Positions 28,118-43,987 of a stretch of DNA of 58,938 bases are shown piece by piece. The notes beneath the pieces are model-generated. The model was given only the letters and a program-made list of their open reading frames with translations, did not search any database and was not told where the DNA came from. The translations under genes were made by a program, and so were the position numbers. Source of the stretch: Natrinema hispanicum (GTDB lineage Archaea; Halobacteriota; Halobacteria; Halobacteriales; Natrialbaceae); contig NZ_FOIC01000017.1 in NCBI RefSeq assembly GCF_900111485.1, positions 1-58,938 of the forward strand. The letters are read 5' to 3'. Every line of letters begins with the position of its first letter. Position 1 is the first letter of the stretch.

Positions 28118-29332
28118 TAGTACCGTCCCAATCGTGGACAGCTAGGTTATCTTCTCTGGGTGCGTATCTACAGGAATGAGCCGGAAGAAGTACATCGTCG
28201 ATCTCTCAGACGAAGAACGCACTGAACTCGAAGAGTTCGTTACGAAGGGCACACACCGGGCAGAAGCAATCAACCGCGCAAGGATCCTCCTGAAGGCTGA
28301 TGACGGGCTCACAGATGAGGCCATCTGTGAGCACGTCGGGTGTTCGGTTGGGACACCCCATCGGACCCGAAAAGCGTACTCCGAGCGAGGGATTGCGGCG
28401 ATTCATCGCCGCAAACCCGACAGAGACTACACACCGAAACTTGACGGTCGTGCTGAAGCTCATCTCGTTGCTCTCGCCTGTTCAGAGCCACCAGAAGGCC
28501 GAACGCACTGGACGTACGCGCTCCTCGCTGACCGCCTTGTCACGCTTGAGGAGATCGAGTTCGACTCGATCTCCGAGGAAACCGTCCGACAGCGGCTAAA
28601 AAAACGACCTGAAGCCACACCGCTCTGAGTACTGGCTTATTCCGCCCAAAGAGAACGCAGAGTTCGTCTATCGGATGGAAACAATCCTTTCGCTCTACGA
28701 AGAGCCGTACGACGAGACCCGTCCAGTCATCTGTTTCGACGAGTCCAGCAAAGCACTTCGAAAACACGTCCGCGACCCGCTCCCGGCGTCACCGGGAGCG
28801 GTCGCTCGCACAGATCACCACTACGAACGTAATGGGAAACGAATGCTTCACCTGGCAACTGAGCCGTTGACTGGCTGGTGTCGCTTCCATGTGACTGAAC
28901 GGCGGCGGACCTGTGAATGGATCGACTGTATGCAGGCGATTGCCGACGACTACCCGGATGCTGACTGCATCCGGGTAGTCTTAGACAATCTCAGCACACA
29001 CAATCCGGCCGCCTTCTATCGGTTCTTCCCGCCCGAGAAAGCACGCAAGTATCTCGATCGGTTCGAGTTCTACTACACGCCCACGCACGGAAGTTGGCTG
29101 AATATGGCCGAACTCGTCTGGAGCACGCTCCAGACCCAGTGCCTCAACCGCCGAATTCCGGACGCAGCGACCCTCCGGTCGGAGGTCGCTGCGTGGGAAG
29201 CTGAGCGCAATAAGTTGGATGTCACGGTCAACTGGCAATTCACAAACGAGGACGCTCGAACGAAACTACACCGACTCTATCCGACTATCGAGGAGACCAA
29301 GAACTAGTCACTCAACGGTTGGGAAGGTACTA
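28118..29332 (+). mobile_element. IS630-family insertion sequence with TA target duplication
   Basis: About 1,215 bp. The ends are an inverted repeat, GTACCGTCCCAATCGT near 28120 and ACGGTTGGGAAGGTAC near 29315-29330, 14 of 16 bases matching, each bordered outside by TA as expected for IS630/Tc1-type insertion. It holds one transposase gene split in two frames (28176-28628 and 28675-29307). It is inserted between the HTH_10 regulator and a decayed ABC ATPase gene. Confidence 0.85.
28176..29307 (+). pseudogene. IS630 transposase in two frames
   Basis: The first frame (28176-28628) gives the HTH half: MSRKKYIVDLSDEERTELEE and AICEHVGCSVGTPHRTRKAY. The second frame gives the DDE catalytic half: RPVICFDESSKALRKHV, RVVLDNLSTHNPAAFYRF and PTHGSWLNMAELVWSTLQ, so all three acidic positions are present. 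The switch lies at a run of seven A (28599-28605), and joining the frames needs +1 (or -2). One extra A would explain this as a mutation. Programmed shifting at A runs is known in some IS630 elements, so activity cannot be excluded. Confidence 0.75.
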
Positions 29333-29378
29333 GCACTTTCAACCCGTGAACTGCGTAGTGCTTTTCTCTTCTAGAAGA

Positions 29379-29785
29379 TTAACTGGCATCTGTGTCGTTC
29401 GTCCTCGATGAGGTATCCGGCACGATAACCCGTTCTCCGTCGTGGTGAACCACCGAGACGTTCGCTCCGTAAACCGTCCGGATCGTATCCGGCGTGAGGA
29501 TCTCGAGGGAGCCGGCATCGTAGATCCGCCCGTCGTGGAGTAACACGAGACGGTCGCAGTAGCGGGTGGCAAGGTTCAGATCGTGCAAGGCGGCGACAAC
29601 TGCCACATCTCGTTTCTGGACGTGCGTAGAAACGAGTTCCATCACATCGAGACGGTGTTTGAGATCGAGCGCGCTGTCATTGTGTTGGGGGACGTAGCTA
29701 GCGACTCGAGCGAGTTCGTTGGGACCGAATGCCTCGACGTTCCGCCCGTCGATAGTGATCTGTCCGGCGTCGGGGTTGAGAAATG
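29379..29785 (-). pseudogene. Internally deleted ABC ATPase (heme/cobalamin-type importer)
   Basis: The minus strand reads NPDAGQITIDGRNVEAFGPN and ASYVPQHNDSALDL, then directly RLDVMELVST and VVAALHDLNLATRYCDRLVL. The stretch that should hold the signature LSGGE and Walker B between these is missing, and the N-terminal Walker A is also gone. The tail (DGRIYDAGSLEILTPDTIRT) matches BtuD/FhuC/HmuV-type ATPases. With no ATP-binding or hydrolysis motifs it cannot work. It is flanked by IS630 on one side and a transposase fragment on the other. Confidence 0.75.
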
Positions 29786-29930
29786 AACGTCAAGAATAGC
29801 AAGAGACGCTACATCGGTTACTGTCGTCACTTTCAACGTCTGAGCGCTATTTCCAGATAGTTGATAGTAGTCTGACGAGGCAGCGCGTCGGTCGAGGAAC
29901 GTGCTGTCGAAAGTTGCAGGTCCAGGCTGC
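29786..29930 (-). pseudogene. Fragment of an IS4/IS5-type DDE transposase
   Basis: The minus strand reads FDSTFLDRRAASSDYYQLSG then NSAQTLKVTTVTDVASLAI and LDVHF. This matches the region around the first catalytic Asp of haloarchaeal transposases (A-D-T-F-F-D-R pattern followed by T-L-K and D-V-H). It is fused directly to the truncated ABC ATPase, so it probably marks the insertion that removed the 5' end of that gene. The sequence on to 30083 shows nothing else recognisable. Confidence 0.5.
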
Positions 29931-30083: not shown

Positions 30084-30872
30084 TTAGAGTACGGTATCAA
30101 TCGACGGATTCTCCACTCCCATACAGCGCGCGACATCGTCGACGGACTTCATCTCGAAGACGAAGTAGTCCGCCGGAACCGTCTCGACGAGCTCTCGGTA
30201 CGACGGCAGCGGATCATGGGTGTCACCGGTGCCATCGTTATCGTGGAGATGACAGACGCGGATGCGCTCGCCAAACCGGTCAACGAAGTCACGCCAGTCG
30301 TAGCCGTTTGCCTTTGCGTGGCCCACGTCAAGCGTGACACCGAGGGCATCACCGACCGGTACCGTCTGTAGCGTCGCTTCGAGATCAGCCGGTGACGTCG
30401 TGTAGCGTCGCTTCGACTCGTTCCGTGGCTGATTCTCCAGACAGAGCGCCACGCCGATCTCGTCGGCGTACTCGGCACACTCGAGCAGCGACTGACGGGC
30501 GTTGTCGGCGGCCTTCTCGCGGACCCACTCGGGATAGCGGTGGGGTACGGCACCGCCGTGGACGACAACGGCACCGGCGTCGGCGGTCGCCGCGTCGTCG
30601 AGGGTCTGTTTGACCTGCTCGACGCTCGCCCGTCGGACGGCGTCGTTGAAACTGCCCATGTTCCAGTCACGAAACGGTGCGTGGTACGTGACCGAGACAC
30701 CGTATTGATCGGCCAACTCGCCGAGTTCCGCAGCCGTCGGCACGTCGGGGTGTCCCTCCAGATACTCGCGCTTGAGCTCGAGGTGGTCTAAGCCGAGGTC
30801 GGTGAGGAACTCGAGGAACTCCTCGACGGACGCCCCGAAGCGAACGTCCATGGCCGCACCGAGTCGACTCAT
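30084..30872 (-). CDS. TIM-barrel metal-dependent isomerase/endonuclease IV-like protein coupled to phnM
   Basis: A 262-residue protein of the sugar phosphate isomerase/epimerase (AP endonuclease 2, xylose isomerase-like) superfamily. Candidate metal ligands are seen in VVVHGGAVPH, LCLENQPRNES, VTLDVGHAKAN, CHLHDNDGTGDTHDP and FVFEMKS. The ATG overlaps the phnM stop (ATGA at 30869-30872), so it is translated with phnM as the last gene of the C-P lyase operon. The fold includes both isomerases and phosphodiester-cleaving enzymes. As phnP is absent here, a role in opening the cyclic ribose phosphate or in further handling of the ribose is a reasonable inference. A longer in-frame start upstream is a phnM shadow. 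Confidence 0.8.
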   Translation of the reverse strand: MSRLGAAMDVRFGASVEEFLEFLTDLGLDHLELKREYLEGHPDVPTAAELGELADQYGVSVTYHAPFRDWNMGSFNDAVRRASVEQVKQTLDDAATADAGAVVVHGGAVPHRYPEWVREKAADNARQSLLECAEYADEIGVALCLENQPRNESKRRYTTSPADLEATLQTVPVGDALGVTLDVGHAKANGYDWRDFVDRFGERIRVCHLHDNDGTGDTHDPLPSYRELVETVPADYFVFEMKSVDDVARCMGVENPSIDTVL

Positions 30873-32029
30873 GGCGATCCCTCCGCGCGATAGACCGGCG
30901 TGCCTGCGACGAGCGCCTGCGTGACCGTTGGCGTCGGGTTCTCGTCGATCACCACCAGGTCCGCCCGTGCTCCTTCCGTAATCCGTCCGCGGTCGGTGAG
31001 TCCCACGGCGTCGGCCGGCTGTTTCGTGACGCGGGCGACTCGCTCGGGCAGCGGGTCGCCGGTATCGACGAACGGCGCGGCGAGCAGAGACGTGGGGTGG
31101 TAGTCCGCGACCAGCGCGTCCACGACACCGGCGTCGATAGCGTCCGCCGTTCGCAGGTTGCCCCACTGGCTCCCGCCGCGAACGAGGTTGGGCGCACCCA
31201 TCGTGACGGTCATCCCCAGTTCGTGGGCACGTTTCGCCGTCGCGAGCGTGATCGGGTACTCGCTGATATCCACGCCGACGTTGGAGAGCCGTTCGACCTC
31301 CGTGGCTTCCTCGTCGTCGTGCGAAGCCGTCGGAATACCGTGGTCGTGGGCAGTCTCTACGACGCGGTTTACCCGCTCGCGGATCGTTCCCAACTCGAGG
31401 TCGCCGCGCTCTTTGATCAGCTCCTGTGCTTCTTCTATCGTGTGTTTTTGGGAATTGCGGTAGTAGTCGAGGAACGCCTCCTCGTTGCGGAACTGGCCCT
31501 TACCGGGGATGTGGCTCATCACGGACACGAGGTCGGCGTCACCGGCGGCGATGAGCTCTTCCACAGCCTCGACGCACCGTTCCTGTGTCACCTCACAGCG
31601 AGCATGGATGCGGTGGTCTGCCATGAGGTCGTCGGCACGCTCGACGGCGTCGGTGATCTCTGCACCCAGTTCCGGCGAACGGTTTTCCTTGGGATCGACC
31701 TCGAAGGAGATGGCGTGGAACTTCGTCGTGATGCCGGCAGCGAGGTTCGCACGGTCGGCGGCGGCGAGCGCCATGTGCGTGTCCATCCGTGCACCCGACC
31801 GCGGGTGGAGGTGGGACTCGATATCGTCGCCGTGGAGGTCGATCAGCCCGGGGAGGACAAGGCGATCCCGTGCGTCGACGGTCTCGTCTGCGCGCCGTTC
31901 AACGTCGCCGATACCGGCGATCCGGTCACCCTCGATACGGAGCGCTCCCTCGACGACTGCCTCGGGCGTGACGAGGCGGGCGTTTTCGACGACGATTGTT
32001 GACTCGTTGACCGCGCGCTGTCCGCTCAC
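30869..32029 (-). CDS. phnM: Ribose 1-methylphosphonate 5-triphosphate diphosphatase
   Basis: A 386-residue amidohydrolase-fold enzyme that removes diphosphate from the alkylphosphonate ribose triphosphate made by PhnGHIL. Motifs LVLPGLIDLHGDDIESHLHP, ITTKFHAISFE, SVMSHIPGKGQF and TASHDDEEATEVERLSNVGV are PhnM-specific. Starts 55 bp after phnL; overlaps the TIM-barrel gene by four bases. Confidence 0.92.
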   Translation of the reverse strand: MSGQRAVNESTIVVENARLVTPEAVVEGALRIEGDRIAGIGDVERRADETVDARDRLVLPGLIDLHGDDIESHLHPRSGARMDTHMALAAADRANLAAGITTKFHAISFEVDPKENRSPELGAEITDAVERADDLMADHRIHARCEVTQERCVEAVEELIAAGDADLVSVMSHIPGKGQFRNEEAFLDYYRNSQKHTIEEAQELIKERGDLELGTIRERVNRVVETAHDHGIPTASHDDEEATEVERLSNVGVDISEYPITLATAKRAHELGMTVTMGAPNLVRGGSQWGNLRTADAIDAGVVDALVADYHPTSLLAAPFVDTGDPLPERVARVTKQPADAVGLTDRGRITEGARADLVVIDENPTPTVTQALVAGTPVYRAEGSP

Positions 32030-32084: not shown

Positions 32085-32834
32085 TCACGCGACCACCTCC
32101 CCATCTAATTCCTCACTGTCGTATTCCTCGATGGGGACGACTCCTCTCATGCGCGCGTCCTCGAGAACGACGACCCGATCGGCGACCGCTTCGATAACGT
32201 CGCGGTTGTGGAAGACGCCGACGACGGTCGTTCCGTCGTCAAGGAACTCCCGGAGTAGCTCGATCGCGGCCGCGCGTGTCTCTGGGTCGAGTGCGCTAGT
32301 CGGTTCGTCGAGCAACAGCAGACGTGGCTTGGGTGCGATGGCCTGTGCGAGGTTGATCCGCTGTCGTTCACCGCCGGAGAAGGTGGCGGGGTAGGCGTCC
32401 CACAGTTCCTCGGGCAGGTTGAGCCGCGAGAGCAGTGACTCGGCCGTCTCCCGTGCCTGGTCGATCGGAACGCCTTGCTCGCGGAGCGGTCGGGCGACGA
32501 CGTCCACGGCGGGAACGCGGGGGATCTCATCCAAGAACTGGGACGTATAGCCGATGGCGTCGTCGCGCAGCGCGATGATGTCGCGTTCGGGACAGGCCGC
32601 CAGGTCGACGTCACCGTCCGCGTCGTGGAACACCACGTGGCCGGATGTCGGCTGGTAGGTCCGGTAGATGCACTTCAGCAGCGAGGACTTCCCGCTGCCG
32701 GACTCGCCGACGATGGCGAGGAACTCTCCGTCGTCGACCTCGAAGGAGACGTCGTCGAGTCCGACGACCTGCTTCTCCCCGAGGACGTGCATGTCGAAAG
32801 TCTTCGAGAGACCGTCGACGGTTAGAACTGTCAT
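32085..32834 (-). CDS. phnL: C-P lyase system ATP-binding protein PhnL
   Basis: A 249-residue ABC-type ATPase: Walker A GESGSGKSSLLKCIYRTYQP, QFLDEIPRVPAVDVVARPL (PhnL-specific region), signature FSGGERQRINLAQAIAP and Walker B LLLLDEPTSALD. PhnL associates with the PhnGHIJ core rather than with a transporter. The start directly follows the phnK stop, without overlap. Confidence 0.92.
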   Translation of the reverse strand: MTVLTVDGLSKTFDMHVLGEKQVVGLDDVSFEVDDGEFLAIVGESGSGKSSLLKCIYRTYQPTSGHVVFHDADGDVDLAACPERDIIALRDDAIGYTSQFLDEIPRVPAVDVVARPLREQGVPIDQARETAESLLSRLNLPEELWDAYPATFSGGERQRINLAQAIAPKPRLLLLDEPTSALDPETRAAAIELLREFLDDGTTVVGVFHNRDVIEAVADRVVVLEDARMRGVVPIEEYDSEELDGEVVA

Positions 32835-33665
32835 TTATATCACCGAGTTGATGAGCGTCTGCGTGTATTCGTGGTGTGGATCTTCCATGACGCGGTCGGT
32901 CAGGCCGGATTCGACGACCTGGCCGTGGCGCATCACGAGCGTCCGGTCGGCCAGCAGGCGGACGACGCCGAGGTCGTGCGAGACAACGATGGCGGCGACG
33001 CCTTCTTCGCGCTGGATCCGTCGAAACACGTCGAGGACGCGGGCCTGAACGCTCACGTCCAGTCCCGTCGTCGGTTCGTCGAGGATGACGAGTTCGGGAT
33101 CGTTCGCCAGCGCGCGGGCGATCTGAACGCGTCGTTGCATCCCGCCGGAGTACGTGTGGGCCGGATCGTCCATTCGGTCGACAGGCACCTCCGTCTCGTG
33201 GAACAGGTCACGGACGCGCTCGCGGACGTCCTCGTAACTGCGCCACCCCGAGGACAGGAGTTTCTCGGCGACGTTGCCGCCGCCGGTGAACTCGAGGTTC
33301 AGCCCGTCGCGGATGTGCTGGTGGACGAGGCCGATCTCGCCGTTGCGGAGTTCGTGGCGCGTCTGGTAGTCAGCCTCCAGCAGGTTCCCGTCGTGACCTG
33401 CCAGGTTGACCGCCCCCTCCTGTCGACCCTCGCCTTCTGGCTCGAGTGCCAGCATCTCGGCGAGACTCGACTTGCCGCTGCCGGATTCGCCAACGATCCC
33501 GAGCACTTCGCCGGCCTCGAGGTCGAGGTCGACGTCGGCGCAGGCGACGACGCTCCCGCAGGCCGGACACTGGTTCGTCCCCGCACGGTCGCCGGTGCGG
33601 TCCCGACAGACCGAACAGCCCTCGCCGTAGACCTTGCTCAGGCCGGTCGCCTCGAGCAGGCTCAT
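32835..33665 (-). CDS. phnK: C-P lyase system ATP-binding protein PhnK with zinc-ribbon insert
   Basis: A 276-residue ABC-type ATPase that docks on PhnJ. Walker A GESGSGKSSL, signature YSGGMQRRVQIARALANDPE, Walker B LVILDEPTTGLDVSVQARVL and VVSHDLGVVRLLADR are intact. Unlike the E. coli protein, residues 17-36 carry two CxxC pairs (CSVC and CPAC) inserted between the first strands, likely a zinc ribbon. Start overlaps the phnJ stop by four bases. Confidence 0.92.
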   Translation of the reverse strand: MSLLEATGLSKVYGEGCSVCRDRTGDRAGTNQCPACGSVVACADVDLDLEAGEVLGIVGESGSGKSSLAEMLALEPEGEGRQEGAVNLAGHDGNLLEADYQTRHELRNGEIGLVHQHIRDGLNLEFTGGGNVAEKLLSSGWRSYEDVRERVRDLFHETEVPVDRMDDPAHTYSGGMQRRVQIARALANDPELVILDEPTTGLDVSVQARVLDVFRRIQREEGVAAIVVSHDLGVVRLLADRTLVMRHGQVVESGLTDRVMEDPHHEYTQTLINSVI

Positions 33666-34672
33666 TCGTCGTCACCTCCGTCAGTCGCACCGGTATCTGG
33701 CGTGCCCGGCCCCCAGTCCACGCCGGACCGCTCGAGGTGGTGGTCCTTCGGGAGCGCGGGATCGTCCTGCCGCTTTAGACAGAAGCTCGTGTCGTTACAG
33801 GCGTAGTAGCGCTCGCCATCGTCGGTCTCGACCTCCGTGAGGTAGGTGTCGGTCGAGCCGCAGGCAGCACAAGACTGGTCGGGGAACCGTTCAATCTGGA
33901 AGGACCGATCTTCGAACGCGAGCGGTTCGACCCCGGTGTGTGGCGGAACGGCGTAGATGCGCGCCTCGCGTCCCGCCGCGAACACGAAGAGGGTGTCCGC
34001 GTCGTCGAGTTTGGGCACGTCCCACCGCGGGATCGGCGAAGGATCCATCAGATAGCGGCCGCCGACCATCGTTGGGTAGCGCGAGGCGATGTTGATCTCA
34101 CCCCATTCGACGACGTTCTCGTAGAGGTGGACCCACATCTTCCCGTAGTTGCGGTGAGCGTGTCGTCGCCGGTTCGCCGCGTCCGAGGAGTCCACCTTAC
34201 GGAGCGCGTCGGTGACGGGCACCTGCAAGACGAGGATCTGCTCCTCGGTCAGCACTTCTTCGGGGATTCGGTGGCGGGTCTGGATCACGTCGGCCTCGGT
34301 GGTGTCGGTGGTGGTCGCCACCTCGGCGGTGTCCTCGGCCAATCGTCGGATGTTGGCCGCGTTGACGGACTCGTCGGAGCCCTGGTCGATGACCTTGAAC
34401 GTGTCCTCAGGGCCGAGCAGCGAGAGCGACGCCTGGATACCGCCGGTCCCCCAGCCACGCGCCAGCGGCATCGGCCGGGACGCGTAGGGGACCTGATGGC
34501 CCGGGATCGCGATGGCCTTCAGGGTGGCGCGCCTGACCTCGCGCTTAGTGTGTTCGTCCAGATAGGCGTAGTTGTAGCCCTCGAGGCCGTCCCCCTCGAG
34601 GTTCTCGAGGGCGGCCTCGACGGAGTCGGTCGGTACCGCCGTCTCCACGTCGATGTCGTCGGTTTCAGTCAT
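33662..34672 (-). CDS. phnJ: Carbon-phosphorus lyase PhnJ (radical SAM)
   Basis: A 336-residue catalytic subunit that cleaves the C-P bond of the ribose-linked phosphonate. The 4Fe-4S cysteines are at 268, 271, 292 and 298 (CAACGS, then YYACNDTSFC), close to the E. coli CxxC-x21-Cx5C spacing. The conserved block AIPGHQVPYASRPMPLARGW and GTGGIQ is present. The ATG at 34672 is within the phnI 3' end; a longer frame is a shadow. Confidence 0.93.
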   Translation of the reverse strand: MTETDDIDVETAVPTDSVEAALENLEGDGLEGYNYAYLDEHTKREVRRATLKAIAIPGHQVPYASRPMPLARGWGTGGIQASLSLLGPEDTFKVIDQGSDESVNAANIRRLAEDTAEVATTTDTTEADVIQTRHRIPEEVLTEEQILVLQVPVTDALRKVDSSDAANRRRHAHRNYGKMWVHLYENVVEWGEINIASRYPTMVGGRYLMDPSPIPRWDVPKLDDADTLFVFAAGREARIYAVPPHTGVEPLAFEDRSFQIERFPDQSCAACGSTDTYLTEVETDDGERYYACNDTSFCLKRQDDPALPKDHHLERSGVDWGPGTPDTGATDGGDDE

Positions 34673-35834
34673 CGTCACTCGCCTCGATCGTCTCTCGATC
34701 AGTTGGTTCGTTCTCGCCCGATTCCGTGCTGTCGTCGGCTGTACTACGCTTGGCGTCGTCGTCGCCCGTGGCCCCTGCACCTTGTCGCTCGCGAATGGCA
34801 CGGATGCGATCCAGAATCGACTGGAACGTGACGTAGTGGGGAAGTTTGAGGTGTTCGATGAAACCGAACGAATCCATCCCGTCGACCACGTCGAGGACGA
34901 ACTCGGCGTTCTCGGCGGGCTCGTCCTCGCTGTCGAGCTGGATGGAGGCGTCGAGGATGGTCATCGCGATGACCTTTCGCTCGTTGCGGCCGAACGTCAG
35001 TCCGTAGCCGAAGGCGAACTGCGGGTCGTCACGCTTTGCATACACCGGGACGACCGCTTCGCTCTCGCTGACGTCGACATCGGCGACGGTTACCTCGTCA
35101 CCCGTGTAGGGGTGTTCGATGGTCAGCGGCAGTTTTCCGACGCGGACCTCCGCCAGCGTCGGGTGCACCTGCCCGTATCCCCGCAGTGCCGAGTAGCCGA
35201 GGGCGGTCACCGCGCCCGTCTCCCCGCGTGCGAGTTCCTGGAGTACGGCATCGCGGTCGACCGGCGGCGTGACCGGCTCTCGAGTCGTATCGGTCGGGGC
35301 GTCGACGTCCGGTACCTCGGGGTCGTGAACCAGCCCCTCCTCGCGGAGGACGTCCATGACGTTAGTGAGCGTCGTTGGTTCGGCGTCCTCGAGGTCCCAC
35401 GTCTCGGTTGGATCGTCGGGGTCGTCCTCTCCTTCAAGATCGAAGTCGAGTAACCGCTGCGTGTAGTCTTTGGTCGGCCCGAGGATCTGACCGCCGGGGA
35501 CGTCCTTGAACGCGGGCGAAACGCGCCGGGTAGCAAACATCTCGGCAGGCTCGACCGGAACCGACTCGTCCCACCGCTCCAGCGTCGACCGGTACGCACG
35601 CAAGAGGAAGGCCGCCTCGACGGTATCCCCCTGTGCCTGCTTGACTGCGAGTGCAGCCAACCGCGGTGCGTACAGCCCACCTTCGCTCATCGCTTGCGCG
35701 GTGAGCCGCTCGAGTTGTCCCTCGAGTTGATCGACGGTGATGGTGTCTTCGTCACCGGCGAGGCGCTGTTTCTCGAACAGGTCTTCGGCTCGCTCGATGA
35801 TCTCTTCGCCGGCCGTGACGGCGACGTAGCCCAT
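34665..35834 (-). CDS. phnI: C-P lyase core subunit PhnI
   Basis: A 389-residue protein starting MGYVAVTAGEEIIERAEDLF, with GLYAPRLAALAVKQAQGD, LLRAYRSTLERW and YGLTFGRNERKVIAMTILD, all typical of PhnI. With PhnG, H and L it attaches the phosphonate to ribose of ATP, displacing adenine. The C-terminal 40 residues are low-complexity, acidic and probably a haloarchaeal tail. Overlaps phnJ by eight bases. Confidence 0.92.
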   Translation of the reverse strand: MGYVAVTAGEEIIERAEDLFEKQRLAGDEDTITVDQLEGQLERLTAQAMSEGGLYAPRLAALAVKQAQGDTVEAAFLLRAYRSTLERWDESVPVEPAEMFATRRVSPAFKDVPGGQILGPTKDYTQRLLDFDLEGEDDPDDPTETWDLEDAEPTTLTNVMDVLREEGLVHDPEVPDVDAPTDTTREPVTPPVDRDAVLQELARGETGAVTALGYSALRGYGQVHPTLAEVRVGKLPLTIEHPYTGDEVTVADVDVSESEAVVPVYAKRDDPQFAFGYGLTFGRNERKVIAMTILDASIQLDSEDEPAENAEFVLDVVDGMDSFGFIEHLKLPHYVTFQSILDRIRAIRERQGAGATGDDDAKRSTADDSTESGENEPTDRETIEASDDD

Positions 35835-36428
35835 TCAGCGATCACCTCCGTTGTCGTTCTCGCTCGACTCGGGGCCGTCGGCGACGCGCAGAGTGACCGA
35901 TCGCGGGAGTGCGGCGACGCGATCGTCGCTCGCGAAGACGGCGTCGACGCCGCGTGGGTAGTCTGCTTGGGCGTCCGCGAGCGCGGACAGTTCCGCTGCG
36001 GGCAGCCCGACGCCGAACGTGGTGGTCCCGTTAACGCCGGGTCCGGAAACGGTGACGTCCGTCAGCCCATCCTTGGGGGTCTCCGACAGTCCCTCGACGC
36101 GGTAGATGACGGTCGCACCCTCGCTCGGTTCGACAAGCGATCCGCGCTCGAGGTCGCGAACGTCCCACGACGGCGTCCCGTCCGCATGGACGATATCGGC
36201 CGCTGTCGGATCGGCCGCTGAGTACCGTCCCTGTCCGGCCAGTGCTGTTGTTAGCTCCTCGTCGCTCGAGTGAAACGTCACCTCGTGATCGACCAGGGTG
36301 GCGGTGATGGCGTAGTCCGCGGGCGTGGTCTGAACCCGAGAGACCGTTCCCGGTCGACTCATGACATCACACAGCTCACGGAACGTCTGACGCGTCCCGT
36401 GAACAGGGTCGATGTCGAGCGCTCTCAC
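35835..36428 (-). CDS. phnH: C-P lyase core subunit PhnH
   Basis: A 197-residue core subunit with PGTVSRVQTTP and PSWDVRDLERGSLVEPSEGA, then SGPGVNGTTTFGVGLPAAEL, typical of PhnH. GTG at 36428 (read as MRALDIDPVHGTRQTFRELC) overlaps the phnG stop as GTGA, which decides the start over a longer frame. Confidence 0.9.
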   Translation of the reverse strand: MRALDIDPVHGTRQTFRELCDVMSRPGTVSRVQTTPADYAITATLVDHEVTFHSSDEELTTALAGQGRYSAADPTAADIVHADGTPSWDVRDLERGSLVEPSEGATVIYRVEGLSETPKDGLTDVTVSGPGVNGTTTFGVGLPAAELSALADAQADYPRGVDAVFASDDRVAALPRSVTLRVADGPESSENDNGGDR

Positions 36429-36868
36429 AGGTCGTCCTCCATGGTTTCGAACTCGACGGCGGTGTGAGTGCTCTCCGCCCACGCACGCTCACGTTCTGTC
36501 TGCTGGTTCTCGGCGACACCGCGAAGTCGCGTCGTGATGTCGTCGGCCAGCCGGTGTCCGCCGGCGACGGCAGCGTCGACGATCGCCCCCGACAGGGCGG
36601 CCCGTTCGTTCTTGCCGGGGACCATCGCAAATCCGCGGTCCTCGTCCAGTTCAACTTCAGCGGGCGTCACGACGACTTCCCCGAGATTGAACGGCCGTTT
36701 TTCGACGGGCTCGACGACACGTTGCATCACGAGCTGTGGGGTCGGTTCCTGCAGGACGGACAGCGGTGGGTCGTCCGCCAGCACTTCGTTCGCCAACTTG
36801 GTGAGCACGTCACCGTCGCACGCGGCGATGAGCTCGAACCGATCCGAACGATCGTGTGGATTTTCCAT
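36425..36868 (-). CDS. phnG: C-P lyase core subunit PhnG
   Basis: A 147-residue first gene of the minus-strand phn operon, starting MENPHDRSDRFELIAACDGD, with QRVVEPVEKRPFNLGEVVVT and RGFAMVPGKNERAALSGAIV, both PhnG signatures. The genes phnG to phnM run GHIJKLM without a gap larger than 55 bp. Confidence 0.9.
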   Translation of the reverse strand: MENPHDRSDRFELIAACDGDVLTKLANEVLADDPPLSVLQEPTPQLVMQRVVEPVEKRPFNLGEVVVTPAEVELDEDRGFAMVPGKNERAALSGAIVDAAVAGGHRLADDITTRLRGVAENQQTERERAWAESTHTAVEFETMEDDL

Positions 36869-37002: not shown

Positions 37003-37111
37003 CGAACTCACAGCGTTCGATCGGGGACGTAGTTTCCCATCACTGCACCGGCTACAGCCCCTCCGGACTTTACTCAGCCAAGGGTTATTCTATCCCGTTG
37101 CCAGCTACTCG

Positions 37112-38125
37112 ATGATGTCAGACGAGCCGACTGCTGACGCATCCAACGTACAGGACGGGACAGGGCGTACAACAACCGAGCGGCTGAGCCGCCGTCGCTT
37201 CGCGATCGGCAGCGCAGCTAGTGTCGCCACCCTCTCCGGCCTCGCAGGATGTATTGGCTCTGCCGCCAAGGGAGAGACGGTTACCATTCTTCTGACGCCC
37301 GAGAACCCATCGGATATCCGGAACGACTACATGCCGATGAAAAACTATCTCGAGGGCGAGATCGACGGTCTCACCATCGAGTACAAGGTTCCACAGGATT
37401 ATTCGGCGATTCGACCGGCGCTCAAGAGCGAGCAGGCCGAAATCGGCATGGACGACATTACGCTGATTTCCGCGCCCGATATGATGGACGTCTTCGGGAC
37501 GGCAGTGACGGGCGGGACCGCGTGGTACTTCTCGATGATGCTGACGAACAGGGGTTCGGGGATCGAAAAGCGAACCGATCTGAAAGATAAGACGGTCGCC
37601 TTCGCCGACAAGCTCTCAACGAGTGGCTCGATCTTTGCCGTCTACACGCTGAAACAGGCCGGCCTCGACGTCGGCGACGCACCGCAGGGCGATCCGGTCG
37701 ACTTCGACGGGACGTGGTCGAACCACAAGTTCGCCGTCGAGAAACTCGCAAACGAGGAGGCTGACGCCTGCTGTACGTGGGGCGGCAACGGCATGCCCCA
37801 CGTCGAAAAGAAAGACGTCCCAGAGGACGTCAGACCGAAGACGGCCTATCTCGGCGACACTGCCACCGAAGAACCCCTATTCAAACCGATCTGGTGGTCG
37901 TTCCCGATCCCGAAACAGCCAATCTACTCCCGACAGAGCTGGGAGTCGGACATGAAAGGGAAGATCGAACAGGCGCTTCACGACTCCACCGGGGAGCTGA
38001 TGAAAGAGTACCAGCCCGACGACTACGACGCCACGCTGCCGTTTACGACACTCAGAGACACCTCGATTGAGGACTACCAGCCGGTCATCAAGCGCCTCAA
38101 CAACCTCGGCGTCGAACTCGGATAA
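37112..38125 (+). CDS. phnD: Phosphonate-binding lipoprotein
   Basis: A 337-residue solute-binding protein of the PhnD/phosphite/phosphate family. The signal has RRRFAIGSAASVATLSGLAG followed by C, a Tat-type motif plus lipobox. Ligand-site motifs LLTPENPSDIRNDYMPMKNY and KDKTVAFADKLSTSGS are typical. Start is 37112 or the adjacent ATG at 37115. It begins the plus-strand operon phnDCE. Confidence 0.9.
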   Translation: MMSDEPTADASNVQDGTGRTTTERLSRRRFAIGSAASVATLSGLAGCIGSAAKGETVTILLTPENPSDIRNDYMPMKNYLEGEIDGLTIEYKVPQDYSAIRPALKSEQAEIGMDDITLISAPDMMDVFGTAVTGGTAWYFSMMLTNRGSGIEKRTDLKDKTVAFADKLSTSGSIFAVYTLKQAGLDVGDAPQGDPVDFDGTWSNHKFAVEKLANEEADACCTWGGNGMPHVEKKDVPEDVRPKTAYLGDTATEEPLFKPIWWSFPIPKQPIYSRQSWESDMKGKIEQALHDSTGELMKEYQPDDYDATLPFTTLRDTSIEDYQPVIKRLNNLGVELG

Positions 38126-38159: not shown

Positions 38160-38951
38160 ATGAGCACACTCACCGTAGAGAACGTAACAAAGACGTACGG
38201 AGACGTGACCGCGCTGGAAGACGTGTCCTTCGAGATCGAAGATGAGTTCGTCGTGCTACTTGGCGAATCCGGTGCCGGAAAGTCCACGCTGTTGCGCTGT
38301 ATCAACGGCCTAACCGAGCCGACAACGGGGACCGTCACTCTCGACGGCGAACCGCTTGCGGGCTCGCGCCCCTCCGTCGGAATGATCTTCCAACAGCACA
38401 ACCTCGTCGAGGGCGTCTCCGCGTACCTCAACGCGCTCACCGGCTCGCTCGAGCGGACCTCGCTGCTCGAGAGCATCTTCCAGTGGCACGACCGGGCGGA
38501 CAAGCGCCGGGCGCTCGAGGCCCTCGAAACCGTCGGGCTCCTCGACGAGGCCCACCAGCGCGTCTCCCAGATGAGCGGCGGCCAGCAACAGCGCGTCGGC
38601 ATCGCTCGAGCACTCGTCCAGGACCCCTCGCTCGTGCTCGCTGACGAACCGGTTGCGAGCCTCGATCCGGGGAGCGCCGAGGACGTGATGGGCTACCTGA
38701 AGAAGGCCGCGACCGTCCACGAAGTGACGGCACTCGTGAGCCTCCATCAGGTCAACATCGCCGCCCACTTCGGCGAGCGCTTCATCGGACTGCGTGACGG
38801 CCAACTCCTCTTCGACGTCCAGCAGGGCGAACTTACGCCTGCGTTGATCGACGAGCTGTACGGCGACGTCGAGACGGTCGGCCTCGCCGAGTATCTCGCA
38901 CGCGACAGCGACGAACCACCCACCCAACAGCGACGGAGGGTGGAGGCGTGA
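38160..38951 (+). CDS. phnC: Phosphonate ABC transporter ATPase
   Basis: A 263-residue ATPase: Walker A GESGAGKSTLLRCINGLTEP, PhnC-typical FQQHNLVEGVSAYLNALTG, signature MSGGQQQRVGIARALVQDPS, Walker B LVLADEPVASLDP and SLHQVNIAAHFGERFIGLRD. Starts 34 bp after phnD. Confidence 0.92.
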   Translation: MSTLTVENVTKTYGDVTALEDVSFEIEDEFVVLLGESGAGKSTLLRCINGLTEPTTGTVTLDGEPLAGSRPSVGMIFQQHNLVEGVSAYLNALTGSLERTSLLESIFQWHDRADKRRALEALETVGLLDEAHQRVSQMSGGQQQRVGIARALVQDPSLVLADEPVASLDPGSAEDVMGYLKKAATVHEVTALVSLHQVNIAAHFGERFIGLRDGQLLFDVQQGELTPALIDELYGDVETVGLAEYLARDSDEPPTQQRRRVEA

Positions 38952-40000
38952 GCTCGGAGTCCTCGTCGCGGGGCGATCGGCTCCGTGAGTACCTCGGCCT
39001 CGCCGATGTCGGTGAGACGTCCGTCGACCGGAAACTGACGGACCTCAAGCGCCGAAAGACGGTTCGTCGGTTCTGGACCGCGCTCGGCATCGTTGCTGTC
39101 GCCTTGCTCCTCAACTTCAGTCTCCGCACAGTCGGGTTCTCGCTGGTCGAACTGATCACGCAGTTCCCCTTTTTCCTCGATGCGCTCCCCGAGTACTTCC
39201 CGCCGACGACGTACTACGGGCTCCCCTTCCTCGACGTGATGCAGTACTGGTCTTTCATCATCGAGCAGAACCTCCTCCTCTCGCTGGAGGGGGGCCGCTG
39301 GCTCGCCGGTGACATCAACATCGTCTGGGGAGCGACGTTCGTCACCCTGGCCATCGCGTTCGCAGGCACGGTGCTTGGGCTTCCCGGGGCACTGCTGTTC
39401 GGCGTCATGGCGAGCGAGCGCGTCGTTCCGTATCCGTTCAACTTCCTCTTCCGGGCTACGATGAGCCTCATCCGGGCGATTCCCGCGCTGGTGTGGGTGC
39501 TCATTCTGATTCCGCTCGGCGGCGTCTCGCCGTTTACCGCGACGCTTGCGATCATCATCGACACGACGGGCTATCTCGGTCGCCTGTTCACCGACGAACT
39601 CGAGGAGATCGCGGACGGCCCCATCGAGGGCATCCGTAGCACGGGCGCGAACAAGCCACAGGTCGTCTCGTTCGGTATGCTGAGCCAGGTCTTCCGGCAG
39701 TTCATCGCCTGGATCGCCTTCGACCTCGAGCACAACGTCCGGGTCGCAATCAGCCTCGGCCTCATCGGCGCTGGCGGCCTCGGGCTGGAACTCGACATCC
39801 AGCGCAAGACGTTCAACTACACGGAGATGATGGCCTGTATCATCCTGATCGTCCTGCTCGCCGGCTCCGTCGAACTGCTCAGCCAGCGCGTTCGATCCTA
39901 CCTCCGCGGCGAAGACGAGGTCGAGAAAACCGGCGTCCTCGAGGCGTTTTTCACCTCCCCACGGAAGATCATCGAATCCGCCGCCGGTCGGCGCAGGTAA
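38948..40000 (+). CDS. phnE: Phosphonate ABC transporter permease
   Basis: A 350-residue membrane permease with about six segments and the docking loop DGPIEGIRSTGANKPQVVSF. GTG at 38948 overlaps the phnC stop (GTGA). It is longer than bacterial PhnE because of a charged N-terminus (about 60 residues) before the first membrane segment. Completes the importer. Confidence 0.88.
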   Translation: MSSESSSRGDRLREYLGLADVGETSVDRKLTDLKRRKTVRRFWTALGIVAVALLLNFSLRTVGFSLVELITQFPFFLDALPEYFPPTTYYGLPFLDVMQYWSFIIEQNLLLSLEGGRWLAGDINIVWGATFVTLAIAFAGTVLGLPGALLFGVMASERVVPYPFNFLFRATMSLIRAIPALVWVLILIPLGGVSPFTATLAIIIDTTGYLGRLFTDELEEIADGPIEGIRSTGANKPQVVSFGMLSQVFRQFIAWIAFDLEHNVRVAISLGLIGAGGLGLELDIQRKTFNYTEMMACIILIVLLAGSVELLSQRVRSYLRGEDEVEKTGVLEAFFTSPRKIIESAAGRRR

Positions 40001-40150: not shown

Positions 40151-40816
40151 ATGACGTACATCGACTCACACGGTGGTGATCGAGTGAAATCGCTCTCGCC
40201 CGAGCCGACGATCCACGATCCGGTACAGATAACCGAGAGTACGCTCGGCGAGTGGACCGAGATCCGCCCGCACTCACGGCTGCACGCCGCCGAAATCGGC
40301 GACTACACGTACCTGATGGAACGCGTCCAGCTCGATTACACGACCATCGGCAAGTTCGGCAACATCGCTTCCGACGTTCGCCTCGGCCCGCCGAACCACC
40401 CCATCGACCGCCCGACGGCCCACCACTTCACCTATCGGGCAGCGATGTACGACATGGGCGAGGACGACGACACGATCTTCGAGTGGCGAGCCGACCAGCC
40501 CGTCGAGATCGGTCACGACGTCTGGATCGGACACAGCGCGACGGTACTCCCGGGGTCCACCATCGGCAACGGTGCGGTCGTCGCTGCCGGTGCGGTCGTC
40601 GTCGACGACGTGCCACCGTACAGTATCGTCGCTGGGGTTCCGGCCAAACCGGTCCGTCGGCGGTTCCCCGAAGACGTCGCCGCGCGACTCGAGGCCACCG
40701 AGTGGTGGCACTGGGACCACGAGACGCTTGCCGACCGTCTCGCGGACTTTCGCGACCTCGAGTCGTTCCTCTCGGCGTACGCGCCTGAGACGGCGGAGCC
40801 ATCACGACTCGATTGA
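40151..40816 (+). CDS. Phosphonate-linked hexapeptide-repeat acetyltransferase
   Basis: A 221-residue left-handed beta-helix protein with hexapeptide repeats (IGHDVWIGHSATVLPGSTIG, then NGAVVAAGAVVVDDVPPYSI). It belongs to the transferase family repeatedly found in phn loci and probably acetylates an aminophosphonate or related amine. In-frame starts at 40151 or the GTG at 40184 are possible. It follows phnE by 150 bp, probably in the same transcript. Confidence 0.8.
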   Translation: MTYIDSHGGDRVKSLSPEPTIHDPVQITESTLGEWTEIRPHSRLHAAEIGDYTYLMERVQLDYTTIGKFGNIASDVRLGPPNHPIDRPTAHHFTYRAAMYDMGEDDDTIFEWRADQPVEIGHDVWIGHSATVLPGSTIGNGAVVAAGAVVVDDVPPYSIVAGVPAKPVRRRFPEDVAARLEATEWWHWDHETLADRLADFRDLESFLSAYAPETAEPSRLD

Positions 40817-41022: not shown

Positions 41023-41787
41023 TTAGGACTGTCGAACCGATTGCCTCCGGACGAGCCAGTAGACGACGCTGAGGAGTCCGGCGAGGAGCCCGACTTCGGC
41101 GAGACGGCGACCACGCTTGCGTTCCGTGGGCGACGATTCCTGTTCGCGTTTCGTAAGTGGCGATTCACGCGCTTGCTCTGTGGGCGGCGACTCACGTTTA
41201 TATTCCATGGCAACACGGTCGTCGGTCTGTGGTGTGTCGGCCGCGACCCGCTGTTCGGCGAGTGCGGCGAAGTCGGTAGCGAACGCTTCGACCTCGTCCC
41301 AGTCGGTGTACTCGTAATCCCGTGACGTATCCGTATCGCCAGTCGTTACCGCCGAAAAGAGCTTGAAGAAGAGCCGCGTGAAGGGACCGTATCGCGTGTA
41401 TTTGACCGCGCCAGCGAAGAGCCCGACGCGGTCGGGCTGCCATCCAGTTCGTTCGATGAGGGCATCGACCCACTCTTGGGCCCCGTCTCGAGCCCAGTTG
41501 GAGGGAATAGCCGAAGCAAAGGACAGCTGGAAGAACGCGGTTGGCTTCGCCGCGAGCGCCTCGCGGTTTCGGTCGACGAACGCAACGACTGCCCGTAGAT
41601 GTTTTCGATTGATGACCGGCGAGCCGATGAGCACTGCATCGACATCATCGACGATCGAATCCGACGTCTCTGTCACGTATCGCGTTGTGACGTCGTGGCC
41701 GCGGTCGGTGAGCACGGTTCCGATGTACTCAGCGACCGTCGCCGTCTGTCCCTCGTCGGTTCCGTACACTATGAGAAACGATACCAT
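41023..41787 (-). CDS. Flavodoxin-like protein (HemG-type) with membrane tail
   Basis: A 254-residue protein starting MVSFLIVYGTDEGQTATVAE, a flavodoxin FMN phosphate loop, followed by AVLIGSPVINRKHLRAVVAF. It resembles menaquinone-dependent protoporphyrinogen oxidase HemG. A tail (about 185-230) is charged and has three nine-residue near-repeats (ESPPTEQAR, ESPLTKREQ, ESSPTERKR) and ends in a hydrophobic segment (GLLAGLLSVVYWLV) that would anchor it to the membrane. Function in heme synthesis is plausible but unproved. Confidence 0.8.
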   Translation of the reverse strand: MVSFLIVYGTDEGQTATVAEYIGTVLTDRGHDVTTRYVTETSDSIVDDVDAVLIGSPVINRKHLRAVVAFVDRNREALAAKPTAFFQLSFASAIPSNWARDGAQEWVDALIERTGWQPDRVGLFAGAVKYTRYGPFTRLFFKLFSAVTTGDTDTSRDYEYTDWDEVEAFATDFAALAEQRVAADTPQTDDRVAMEYKRESPPTEQARESPLTKREQESSPTERKRGRRLAEVGLLAGLLSVVYWLVRRQSVRQS

Positions 41788-41839
41788 CCGGAATCACGAC
41801 TTCGCTACGACCTCGATGGTCGTAGTTCTGTGGGGGCGT

Positions 41840-42781
41840 TCAGATCATAACATGGTCGGGCTGGACGCCGGAGTGTAAGCGGACGGCGATTTCGGCGGCG
41901 TGCACCCAGTAGTAGATCGCCCGCTCGAGCGCCCGGGTCACCGTCACCAAGTAGCCGTACATCTCCGGATCGTACGCCGTCACCAGTTCGAACAGTTCGT
42001 CGAGGTCGCGGTGGACAGTCTCTTCTTGCGCGATGAGATCGTCGTGGGCCGCAAGGTCACACTCGAAGAGGATCGCTGTGAGATAATCGTTGATCTGCTC
42101 GCCCGCATCGAAGATATCGCAGACACGCTCTTCGATCACGCCGGTGGTTGCTACCTCCTGGTTGTCGATGACGTCAGTAATGAAGCAGGCCCGATCGCCG
42201 ACGATCTCTAAGTTCGTCGCGATCGTCGCCAGATCGGCGGCGACTCGGTTGCCGGGCCAGTCGGTCGTCAGCGTGTATGACTTGAGTTCAGAGAGGACCG
42301 CCGAGTGGCGCTCGTTCGCTAGCGACTCGAGCGTATCTGCCGGCCGTTCGGGTTCTTCGCCGACAAACGACTGACGGGCAGCCGAGTACTGCGCAGTCGT
42401 AATGTCCTCGAGTCGCGCTAACAAGTCGATCACCGTTTCTCCTCGCTTACCGGGTGCTGTCGTCCCGACCCCGGACGCATCCCGTGTGCGCTCGGAGTCT
42501 TCGGTGTCGGGGGCCACACAGTCGGCGTCGAGCGGCGAGAGTGAGTCTGCGTGTGCGTACAACGACGCATCGTCGACGACGTACGCCTTTCGGACGATGT
42601 CGTCCGCTTTCAGGTCCTGCAGCAGTTCGGAGAGATACTGCTCGGAGATACCGACGTCCGCCGCCAGCCGGGCCTTTGTCTGCGGTGCAGTCCGGTCAAT
42701 AGACTCGATAACCTGTGCGATCGTCGCATCGCGACCCTGTCGGGTCGCGTCTTGCGGCCGATGCCACATTTCCCGGAACAT
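41840..42781 (-). CDS. PhoU-like protein with N-terminal winged helix
   Basis: A 313-residue protein. The N-terminus (about 20-70) is an HTH, APQTKARLAADVGISEQYLS then ELLQDLKADDIVRKAY. The C-terminal two-thirds is all-helical PhoU-like (ADLATIATNLEIVGDRACFI, then RALERAIYYWVHAAEIAVRL). PhoU proteins sense or transmit phosphate status. It is divergent from a second PhoU protein 192 bp away; no Pst transporter is in the window, so phn is the nearest phosphate-related target. Confidence 0.8.
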   Translation of the reverse strand: MFREMWHRPQDATRQGRDATIAQVIESIDRTAPQTKARLAADVGISEQYLSELLQDLKADDIVRKAYVVDDASLYAHADSLSPLDADCVAPDTEDSERTRDASGVGTTAPGKRGETVIDLLARLEDITTAQYSAARQSFVGEEPERPADTLESLANERHSAVLSELKSYTLTTDWPGNRVAADLATIATNLEIVGDRACFITDVIDNQEVATTGVIEERVCDIFDAGEQINDYLTAILFECDLAAHDDLIAQEETVHRDLDELFELVTAYDPEMYGYLVTVTRALERAIYYWVHAAEIAVRLHSGVQPDHVMI

Positions 42782-42933
42782 ACCTGCGAAACTCGACGGG
42801 CGGGGTTAGTCCTGTGCAATAGACTGTCCAGACGCCTATATAGCAACTGGACTGCTGTCGCGCTCTCGAGTCGAGAGCTGTCATAGCTGCAAACAGTATT
42901 GATATGTAGCCACCTATAGCAGACTAATCCATT

Positions 42934-42941
42934 CATATAAG
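42934..42941 (+). promoter_or_regulatory. TATA-like box of the AbrB-PhoU gene
   Basis: CATATAAG lies about 33-40 bp before the ATG at 42974, followed by GGGGGAG near 42950, a possible ribosome-binding site. Confidence 0.4.
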
Positions 42942-42973
42942 CGGTAAAGGGGGAGTCATGCGGTTCGGTCAGT

Positions 42974-43987
42974 ATGGAGACACGGAAAGTTCAGCTCTCC
43001 GGTGGAACGACGTACACCATCTCGCTCCCGAAGTCCTGGGCACAAGAACACGGGATCGAGGCCGGATCTGTGCTCTCATTGCACCCGAATCAGGACGCTT
43101 CGCTACTCGTCGAAGCGATGGGTGGCCGCACCAGTGCCGATCGCTCGACGACGATCGATGTCTCCACTGACAGCGACAACACGATCCGCCAACGGATTCG
43201 CGCTGTTCACGCAGTCGGCTACGATTCGGTGACGCTCGTGGATACGACGGGGCACCCAGATGACCGCCGGAAACTGGTCGACCGAACGCTGACGGAGCTA
43301 TCGGGATTCGAACTCCTCGAGACGACCGACACCCGAATTCGACTGACGAATCTCATCGACGCCGAGAACGTCGACGTCAGGAAGAGCACGCTCCGGCTCC
43401 GACTGGTGATGCTCGCGATGCACCGGGACGCCGTGACTGCTGTCGTCGACGGGAACGAAGACTTGGCTCGACGCGTTATCGAGCGCGACAGCGAAGCCGA
43501 CAAGCTGTTCGCGATGATTACACGCCACTTCCGACGCTCGCTGACTGATCTCCACGAGGTCGAGAAACTGGACTGGAGCCGGGACGAACTCTTCGAGTAC
43601 TACTACGCCGCACGCCAGTTCGAACGCATCGCCGATCACGCCGAGAAAATCGCCAAGTTCGCATTCGAGCCGGCCGCGACGATTCCACCGGCGTACGCCA
43701 CACGGCTCTCCGAACTCGCCACCGCCTCCCGGCAGGTCGTCGATGAGGCGGCCGACGCTATCCTCACAGATGCCAGCGTTGCGGCCGCCAACGGCGCGCT
43801 TGACAAACGCGATCGGCTGCTGGATCGACTCGAGGACTTCGACCGCGATCTCTACGATCACGACGTGCCAAACGAGGCGTACGTCCTCGGACTCCTGCTC
43901 GACAGCCTCCGCCGAACGGTTCGGTACGGTGCGAACGTCGCCGAAATAGCCCTCCAGCAGGTCACTAGACAGAACACTACAGACTGA
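42974..43987 (+). CDS. phoU: Phosphate uptake regulator: AbrB-like domain fused to PhoU
   Basis: A 337-residue protein whose N-terminus (METRKVQLSGGTTYTISLPK) is a SpoVT/AbrB-type DNA-binding fold and whose remainder is PhoU-like helical bundle (YYAARQFERIADHAEKIAKF). This architecture is common in archaea and is thought to couple phosphate state to transcription. Positioned 2.2 kb from the phn transport operon and divergent from the HTH-PhoU gene. Confidence 0.87.
   Translation: METRKVQLSGGTTYTISLPKSWAQEHGIEAGSVLSLHPNQDASLLVEAMGGRTSADRSTTIDVSTDSDNTIRQRIRAVHAVGYDSVTLVDTTGHPDDRRKLVDRTLTELSGFELLETTDTRIRLTNLIDAENVDVRKSTLRLRLVMLAMHRDAVTAVVDGNEDLARRVIERDSEADKLFAMITRHFRRSLTDLHEVEKLDWSRDELFEYYYAARQFERIADHAEKIAKFAFEPAATIPPAYATRLSELATASRQVVDEAADAILTDASVAAANGALDKRDRLLDRLEDFDRDLYDHDVPNEAYVLGLLLDSLRRTVRYGANVAEIALQQVTRQNTTD

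Follow-up and report, generated by a model that had tools for sequence, protein, structure and literature searches.

An endonuclease IV-like TIM-barrel protein as a candidate PhnP substitute in haloarchaeal C–P lyase operons

Which enzyme opens the cyclic phosphate made by C–P lyase in haloarchaea whose phn operons lack phnP? In the C–P lyase pathway, PhnJ produces 5-phospho-α-D-ribosyl 1,2-cyclic phosphate, which PhnP converts to ribose 1,5-bisphosphate and PhnN then carries on to PRPP (PMC10574752). The same 2023 review describes phn clusters without phnN, phnO and phnP in Haloquadratum walsbyi and Natronomonas moolapensis, and states that data on phosphonate consumption by archaea have yet to be published (PMC10574752). 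Salterns, a setting in which methane derived from phosphonates has been discussed, are home to haloarchaea that bear phn genes (PMC8692437). Our literature search, which covered open-licence papers, found none that links a PF01261 protein to C–P lyase.

The DNA analysed here, referred to as the window, is a stretch of 58,938 nucleotides (contig NZ_FOIC01000017.1) from the 3.96-Mb assembly of Natrinema hispanicum. Against the Natrinema hispanicum sequence used for comparison, its TIM-barrel protein shows 94% identity and the blocks of DNA in common show 91–97%. On its minus strand it carries phnG, phnH, phnI, phnJ, phnK, phnL and phnM in that order, followed by a gene for a TIM-barrel protein of 262 amino acids. 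Divergent from these, on the plus strand, are phnD, phnC, phnE and a gene for a phosphonate-associated hexapeptide transferase. The features are as follows.

30084–30872, minus strand: TIM-barrel (PF01261) protein, 262 aa, candidate metal phosphodiesterase (PF01261 112.9 bits; CbiR model 70.9 bits; AlphaFold2 pLDDT 92.6); the longest ORF, from 31166, was judged over-long, and the conserved start ATG is at 30872
30869–30872, minus strand: ATGA stop/start overlap of phnM and the TIM-barrel gene, 4 bp
30869–32029, minus strand: phnM (NF011990, 469.8 bits)
32085–32834, minus strand: phnL (TIGR02324, 253.5 bits against a cut-off of 256.3)
32835–33665, minus strand: phnK (TIGR02323, 210 bits, below the cut-off of 302.85; operon position)
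33662–34672, minus strand: phnJ (PF06007, 440 bits; start at 34672)
34665–35834, minus strand: phnI (placed between phnH and phnJ; homologous ORFs of relatives are annotated PhnI)
35835–36428, minus strand: phnH (TIGR03292, 152.2 bits)
36425–36868, minus strand: phnG (TIGR03293, 111.2 bits)
37100–38125, plus strand: phnD (PF12974, TIGR01098); the start is approximate, as the longest ORF, beginning at 36464, was judged over-extended
38160–38951, plus strand: phnC (TIGR02315, 258.5 bits against a cut-off of 266.1)
38948–40000, plus strand: phnE (TIGR01097, 231.5 bits)
40151–40816, plus strand: phosphonate-cluster hexapeptide transferase (TIGR03308, 305.2 bits)

An original prediction, made from this DNA alone, had listed a complete set of core and transport genes. 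The family models recover PhnG, H, J, K, L, M, D, C and E, and PhnI is identified by its position between H and J. A flavodoxin-like gene and two PhoU-type genes adjoin the cluster at 41023–43987; in Natribaculum luteum (L164), too, phn is bordered by genes of these kinds.

The prediction had also reported that PhnP and PhnN are missing from the window. Neither was seen there, and the observation extends to the whole assembly and to the 27 other genomes of the order that encode PhnJ: among the proteins of these 28 genomes, none reaches the cut-off for PhnP (TIGR03307; best 66 bits of 272) or for PhnN (best 32 bits of 156). The activity may still be encoded by a protein that misses these curated cut-offs. 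A family proposed to replace PhnP in some bacteria was sought as DUF1045 (PF06299), which we take to cover RcsF; it gave no matches in 30 genomes, and the control genomes likewise gave none.

Coupling to phnM and restriction to PhnJ genomes

The start of the TIM-barrel gene overlaps the stop of phnM by exactly 4 bp, just as first described, with the ATG at 30872 and the phnM ORF running from 30869 to 32029. The same 4-bp junction is present in most loci of the 28 PhnJ genomes. Of 31 loci from named species (a set that overlaps the 28 genomes), 27 have it too. Because this junction recurs so widely, the overlap is not a matter of chance.

PhnJ (PF06007) is present in 28 of the 293 genomes of the order. 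A search of all 293 with the TIM-barrel protein gave a full-length match at 62–100% identity in every one of the 28, its gene always lying on the phnJ strand about 3 kb beyond phnJ, and no full-length match above 56% in the 265 genomes without PhnJ. Fisher's exact test for this distribution (28/28 versus 0/265) gives p ~1e-39, with genomes treated as independent, which they are not. Co-occurrence with phnM, and anti-occurrence with phnP, had been suggested as a check at the outset; the gene is thus found in all PhnJ genomes and, at that similarity, in no others, and curated PhnP in none of the 28.

Pairwise distances between TIM-barrel proteins show correlations of r 0.79–0.88 with the distances for PhnG to PhnM, far above the values for PhnC (0.51) and PhnE (0.48), and therefore the gene travels with the catalytic cassette and not with the transporter genes. 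In a tree, the phn and non-phn haloarchaeal TIM-barrel groups form one clade (99/99), in which the phn-linked group is not resolved as monophyletic. We also see that, across the 28 haloarchaeal phn loci, PhnC and PhnE distances correlate with each other at 0.81 and with those of the catalytic genes at only 0.33–0.61, which suggests that the transporter half of these loci has been exchanged.

Metal ligands and fold of the TIM-barrel protein

The assignment of the protein to the AP endonuclease 2/xylose isomerase-like barrels, made initially from the sequence alone, is borne out by a PF01261 score of 112.9 bits against a gathering score of 31.1. Its best NCBIfam models are CbiR (NF041277) followed by deoxyribonuclease IV, and both are matched by all 30 family members that were scanned. 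The window protein lies below the cut-offs of both models, with 70.9 bits against 105 for CbiR and 21.7 against 129.65 for endonuclease IV (TIGR00587), and far below all those of the curated FrlC, psicose epimerase, XylA and IolO models. The PhnPP model (NF041661) was absent from the matches of any of the 30 members. The similarity to CbiR and to E. coli endonuclease IV (Nfo) could be read as the mark of a DNA-repair or cobamide-remodelling enzyme that is simply carried along in the operon. We consider this highly improbable, given that the window protein misses both curated cut-offs, the operon holds no corrinoid or repair genes, and the gene is strictly limited to PhnJ genomes.

Nine residues, H64, H105, E146, D182, H185, H208, D217, H219 and E240, are invariant in 30 aligned phn-linked TIM-barrel proteins. 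They align to Nfo H69, H109, E145, D179, H182, H216, D229, H231 and E261, which we take, in this numbering, to be the nine ligands of the three zincs in that enzyme. Seven of the positions aligned directly; H64 and E240 were shifted in the first alignment, and E240 was placed on E261 by a second alignment while H64 was assigned through the motif HAPF. A three-metal centre is predicted on this basis. In the E. coli sugar isomerases/epimerases Hyi, UlaE and FrlC, several of these nine positions are missing. A separate clade of haloarchaeal PF01261-like paralogues (L171–L176 and L178), at about 30% identity, also keeps the endonuclease IV ligand positions.

The AlphaFold2 model of the protein is confident (pLDDT 92.6, pTM 0.91). 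Its closest solved structure is MJ1311 (PDB 3wqo; Z 28.7, 246 aligned residues, rmsd 2.6), which is titled a D-tagatose 3-epimerase-like protein. Below it in the fold search come many isomerases and epimerases at Z 23–25, and endonuclease IV at about 23. Since the value for endonuclease IV resembles those of so many isomerases, the fold alone leaves the choice between endonuclease IV-like and epimerase-like undecided.

Two roles had been put forward in the original prediction, namely opening of the cyclic phosphate or conversion of the ribose product. In its fullest form, the second would have the TIM-barrel protein act after ring opening as a ribose phosphate isomerase or epimerase, with another protein, a metallo-β-lactamase encoded elsewhere, opening the ring. 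The database annotation of the protein in related plasmids, sugar phosphate isomerase/epimerase, fits such a role, as do the many epimerases among the structural matches. It is also the case that all 28 PhnJ genomes hold weak PhnP-like metallo-β-lactamases (≤66 bits) and weak PHP-family matches to a PhnPP-like query (≤64 bits). Both findings count against reading the TIM-barrel protein as the PhnP equivalent, as a generic protein of either kind may supply the ring-opening activity. We nevertheless find the isomerase role unlikely. The protein keeps the nine endonuclease IV ligands, several of which are missing from the three E. coli isomerases/epimerases, and the best PhnP-like metallo-β-lactamase falls well short of the PhnP cut-off. 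Moreover, that family is also matched in the control Haloferax volcanii, where PhnJ gave no match, and we take the weak PhnP matches to be generic metallo-β-lactamases. With the nine endonuclease IV-type ligands and the similarity to CbiR as the grounds, phosphodiester opening is favoured over sugar conversion, so that the first of the two suggested roles appears the better supported.

Our preferred reading is that the TIM-barrel protein is probably a haloarchaeal substitute for PhnP, with an endonuclease IV fold, that hydrolyses 5-phospho-α-D-ribosyl 1,2-cyclic phosphate, the resulting bisphosphate being taken on by a coupled HAD phosphatase or an isomerase. Its gene is a strong candidate for the missing ring-opening enzyme.

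Downstream steps and phosphatase partners

Directly after the TIM-barrel gene, in 14 of the 28 loci, is a gene for a protein of about 220 amino acids, and the two genes often share a few bases. The product is a HAD phosphatase (PF13419, PF00702), named HAD-IA family hydrolase by RefSeq in Haloarcula halophila, in which D15, D17, S114, K150, D173 and D177 are invariant and correspond to the expected HAD motif residues; the copy at locus L079 is split between frames. Two more genomes carry a close copy elsewhere, not adjacent, and generic HAD paralogues occur in every PhnJ genome. The window genome has no HAD gene adjoining the TIM-barrel gene, and the initial reading of this DNA missed the coupled phosphatase for that reason. 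Directly 3' of the TIM-barrel gene, at 28176–29900, the window holds IS630-type transposase genes and remnants of an ABC ATPase gene, at the site that the phosphatase gene occupies in half of the other genomes.

Under the preferred reading, the endonuclease IV-like protein would use its three-metal centre to open the cyclic phosphodiester of the PhnJ product, giving a ribose bisphosphate, either 1,5 or 2,5. At loci that have it, the coupled HAD phosphatase would next set free, as Pi, the phosphate that came from the phosphonate, with ribose 5-phosphate left over. If ribose 1,5-bisphosphate is the product, it could instead be converted to ribulose 1,5-bisphosphate by a genome-encoded ribose-1,5-bisphosphate isomerase, a model for which (TIGR00511) is matched above its cut-off in 16 of the 28 genomes. 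PhnN would be dispensable on either route. We considered whether the phosphatase and the isomerase are two alternative downstream routes, but their complementarity across genomes is not significant (p 0.14 when the two non-adjacent close HAD copies are counted, p 0.70 with adjacent copies only).

The absence of the HAD gene at half of the loci counts against pairing it with the TIM-barrel protein in one pathway, and a few genomes have neither an adjacent or close HAD copy nor a curated ribose-1,5-bisphosphate isomerase. Both observations would suit a bifunctional TIM-barrel protein that cleaves both esters and yields ribose 5-phosphate and phosphate directly, with the HAD gene as an accessory. 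PhnPP is known to cleave both ester bonds alone. Where the HAD gene is present, however, it is coupled to the TIM-barrel gene, and a missing neighbour proves little because every genome has generic HAD paralogues. We therefore regard a bifunctional enzyme as quite improbable.

Sister proteins offer a second context. TIM-barrel proteins at 46–56% identity are encoded at 13 loci (L094–L106) in haloarchaeal genomes without PhnJ. A gene resembling ComB, a 2-phosphosulfolactate phosphatase (PF04029), lies near the sister gene in ten of these, overlapping it in some, and several of the loci encode an ECF-type transporter that includes a CbiQ-like component. The family is thus paired with a phosphatase in two contexts, HAD in one and ComB-like in the other, and the phosphatase partner recurs. 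This is what would be expected if the family makes a phosphomonoester.

Outside the haloarchaea, the phn operon of G299, an archaeon of the same phylum with a 1.3-Mb genome that is 86% complete, also ends with a TIM-barrel gene, 12 bp after phnM (L151:425-2518). Its product shares 22–24% identity with the haloarchaeal protein and keeps the endonuclease IV ligand motifs. In the tree it stands apart from the haloarchaeal proteins and clusters with TIM barrels encoded in the agrocinopine locus of plasmid pAtK84b and in operons for Ugp-type transporters. Its position points either to a separate recruitment or to a very ancient split, a choice that the long branches make uncertain. Its relatives at L158:5959-6855, L159:7001-7942 and L160:6950-7870 keep most or all of the ligand positions and are found in the agrocinopine (acc) locus of pAtK84b or beside ABC transporter genes (of Ugp type in L160). 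The bacterial-plasmid relatives of the G299-type protein (P0013) that were examined are not beside phn genes, and among the plasmid records listed in both searches, of which the phnJ listing covered part of the phnJ records, none has its phnJ and P0013-type matches as close as 100 kb. Another archaeal phn operon, that of G411, ends at phnM with no TIM-barrel gene after it, which counts against equating the TIM-barrel protein with PhnP.

At L162:12016-14362, on plasmid pVV8 of Thermus thermophilus HB8, a TIGR00282 metallophosphoesterase and an endonuclease IV-like TIM barrel come after the phn cluster. The TIM barrel is encoded about 3 kb beyond phnM but was left out of the phn genes, because a sugar transporter comes directly after it.

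These contexts raise a broader possibility, which we put forward tentatively and with some doubt. Endonuclease IV-like, three-metal TIM barrels may constitute a broad group, so far unrecognised, of phosphodiesterases that act on small molecules during organophosphorus uptake and frequently have a phosphatase as partner. The group might take in the haloarchaeal phn proteins with their HAD partner, the sisters found beside an ECF transporter and a ComB-like phosphatase, the distant protein encoded after phnM in another class of archaea, and the agrocinopine and Ugp-type relatives, and would have been recruited at least twice by C–P lyase operons in place of PhnP.

Comparison with known systems

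The TIM-barrel gene occupies the same pathway slot as phnP (TIGR03307), among the last genes of the phn operon, and the same substrate, 5-phosphoribosyl 1,2-cyclic phosphate, is proposed for its product. The fold of PhnP is that of the metallo-β-lactamases, whereas the haloarchaeal protein is a PF01261 TIM barrel. PhnPP (NF041661), a PHP-family phosphoribosyl 1,2-cyclic phosphate 1,2-diphosphodiesterase, is itself a known alternative to PhnP and acts on the substrate proposed here. It belongs to another protein family, however, and yields ribose 5-phosphate (PMC8774927), while the TIM-barrel protein is often coupled to a separate HAD phosphatase. In bacterial phn operons without phnP, rcsF has been found and proposed as a non-orthologous replacement (PMC10574752). 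The TIM-barrel protein is likewise proposed as a replacement in a phnP-less operon, but RcsF has the fold of the 2H phosphodiesterase superfamily.

Within its own superfamily, the nearest curated model is CbiR, a demonstrated PF01261-type phosphodiesterase that acts on cobamides and is inhibited by EDTA (PMC7733943). The haloarchaeal protein differs in its sub-cut-off score and in its context, as cobamide genes are absent and a phn neighbourhood is present in 28 of 28 loci. Endonuclease IV has the fold and the nine metal-ligand positions in common with it, but acts on DNA, and its model scores the TIM-barrel protein far below cut-off. MJ1311, the closest solved structure, shares these ligand motifs over the stretch that aligns.

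If our reading is correct, the 'sugar phosphate isomerase' annotation would need correcting. With one clearly delimited candidate gene, the missing archaeal step can be tested directly, and the TIM-barrel protein would stand beside PhnP, PhnPP and RcsF as a further non-orthologous replacement in a known pathway.
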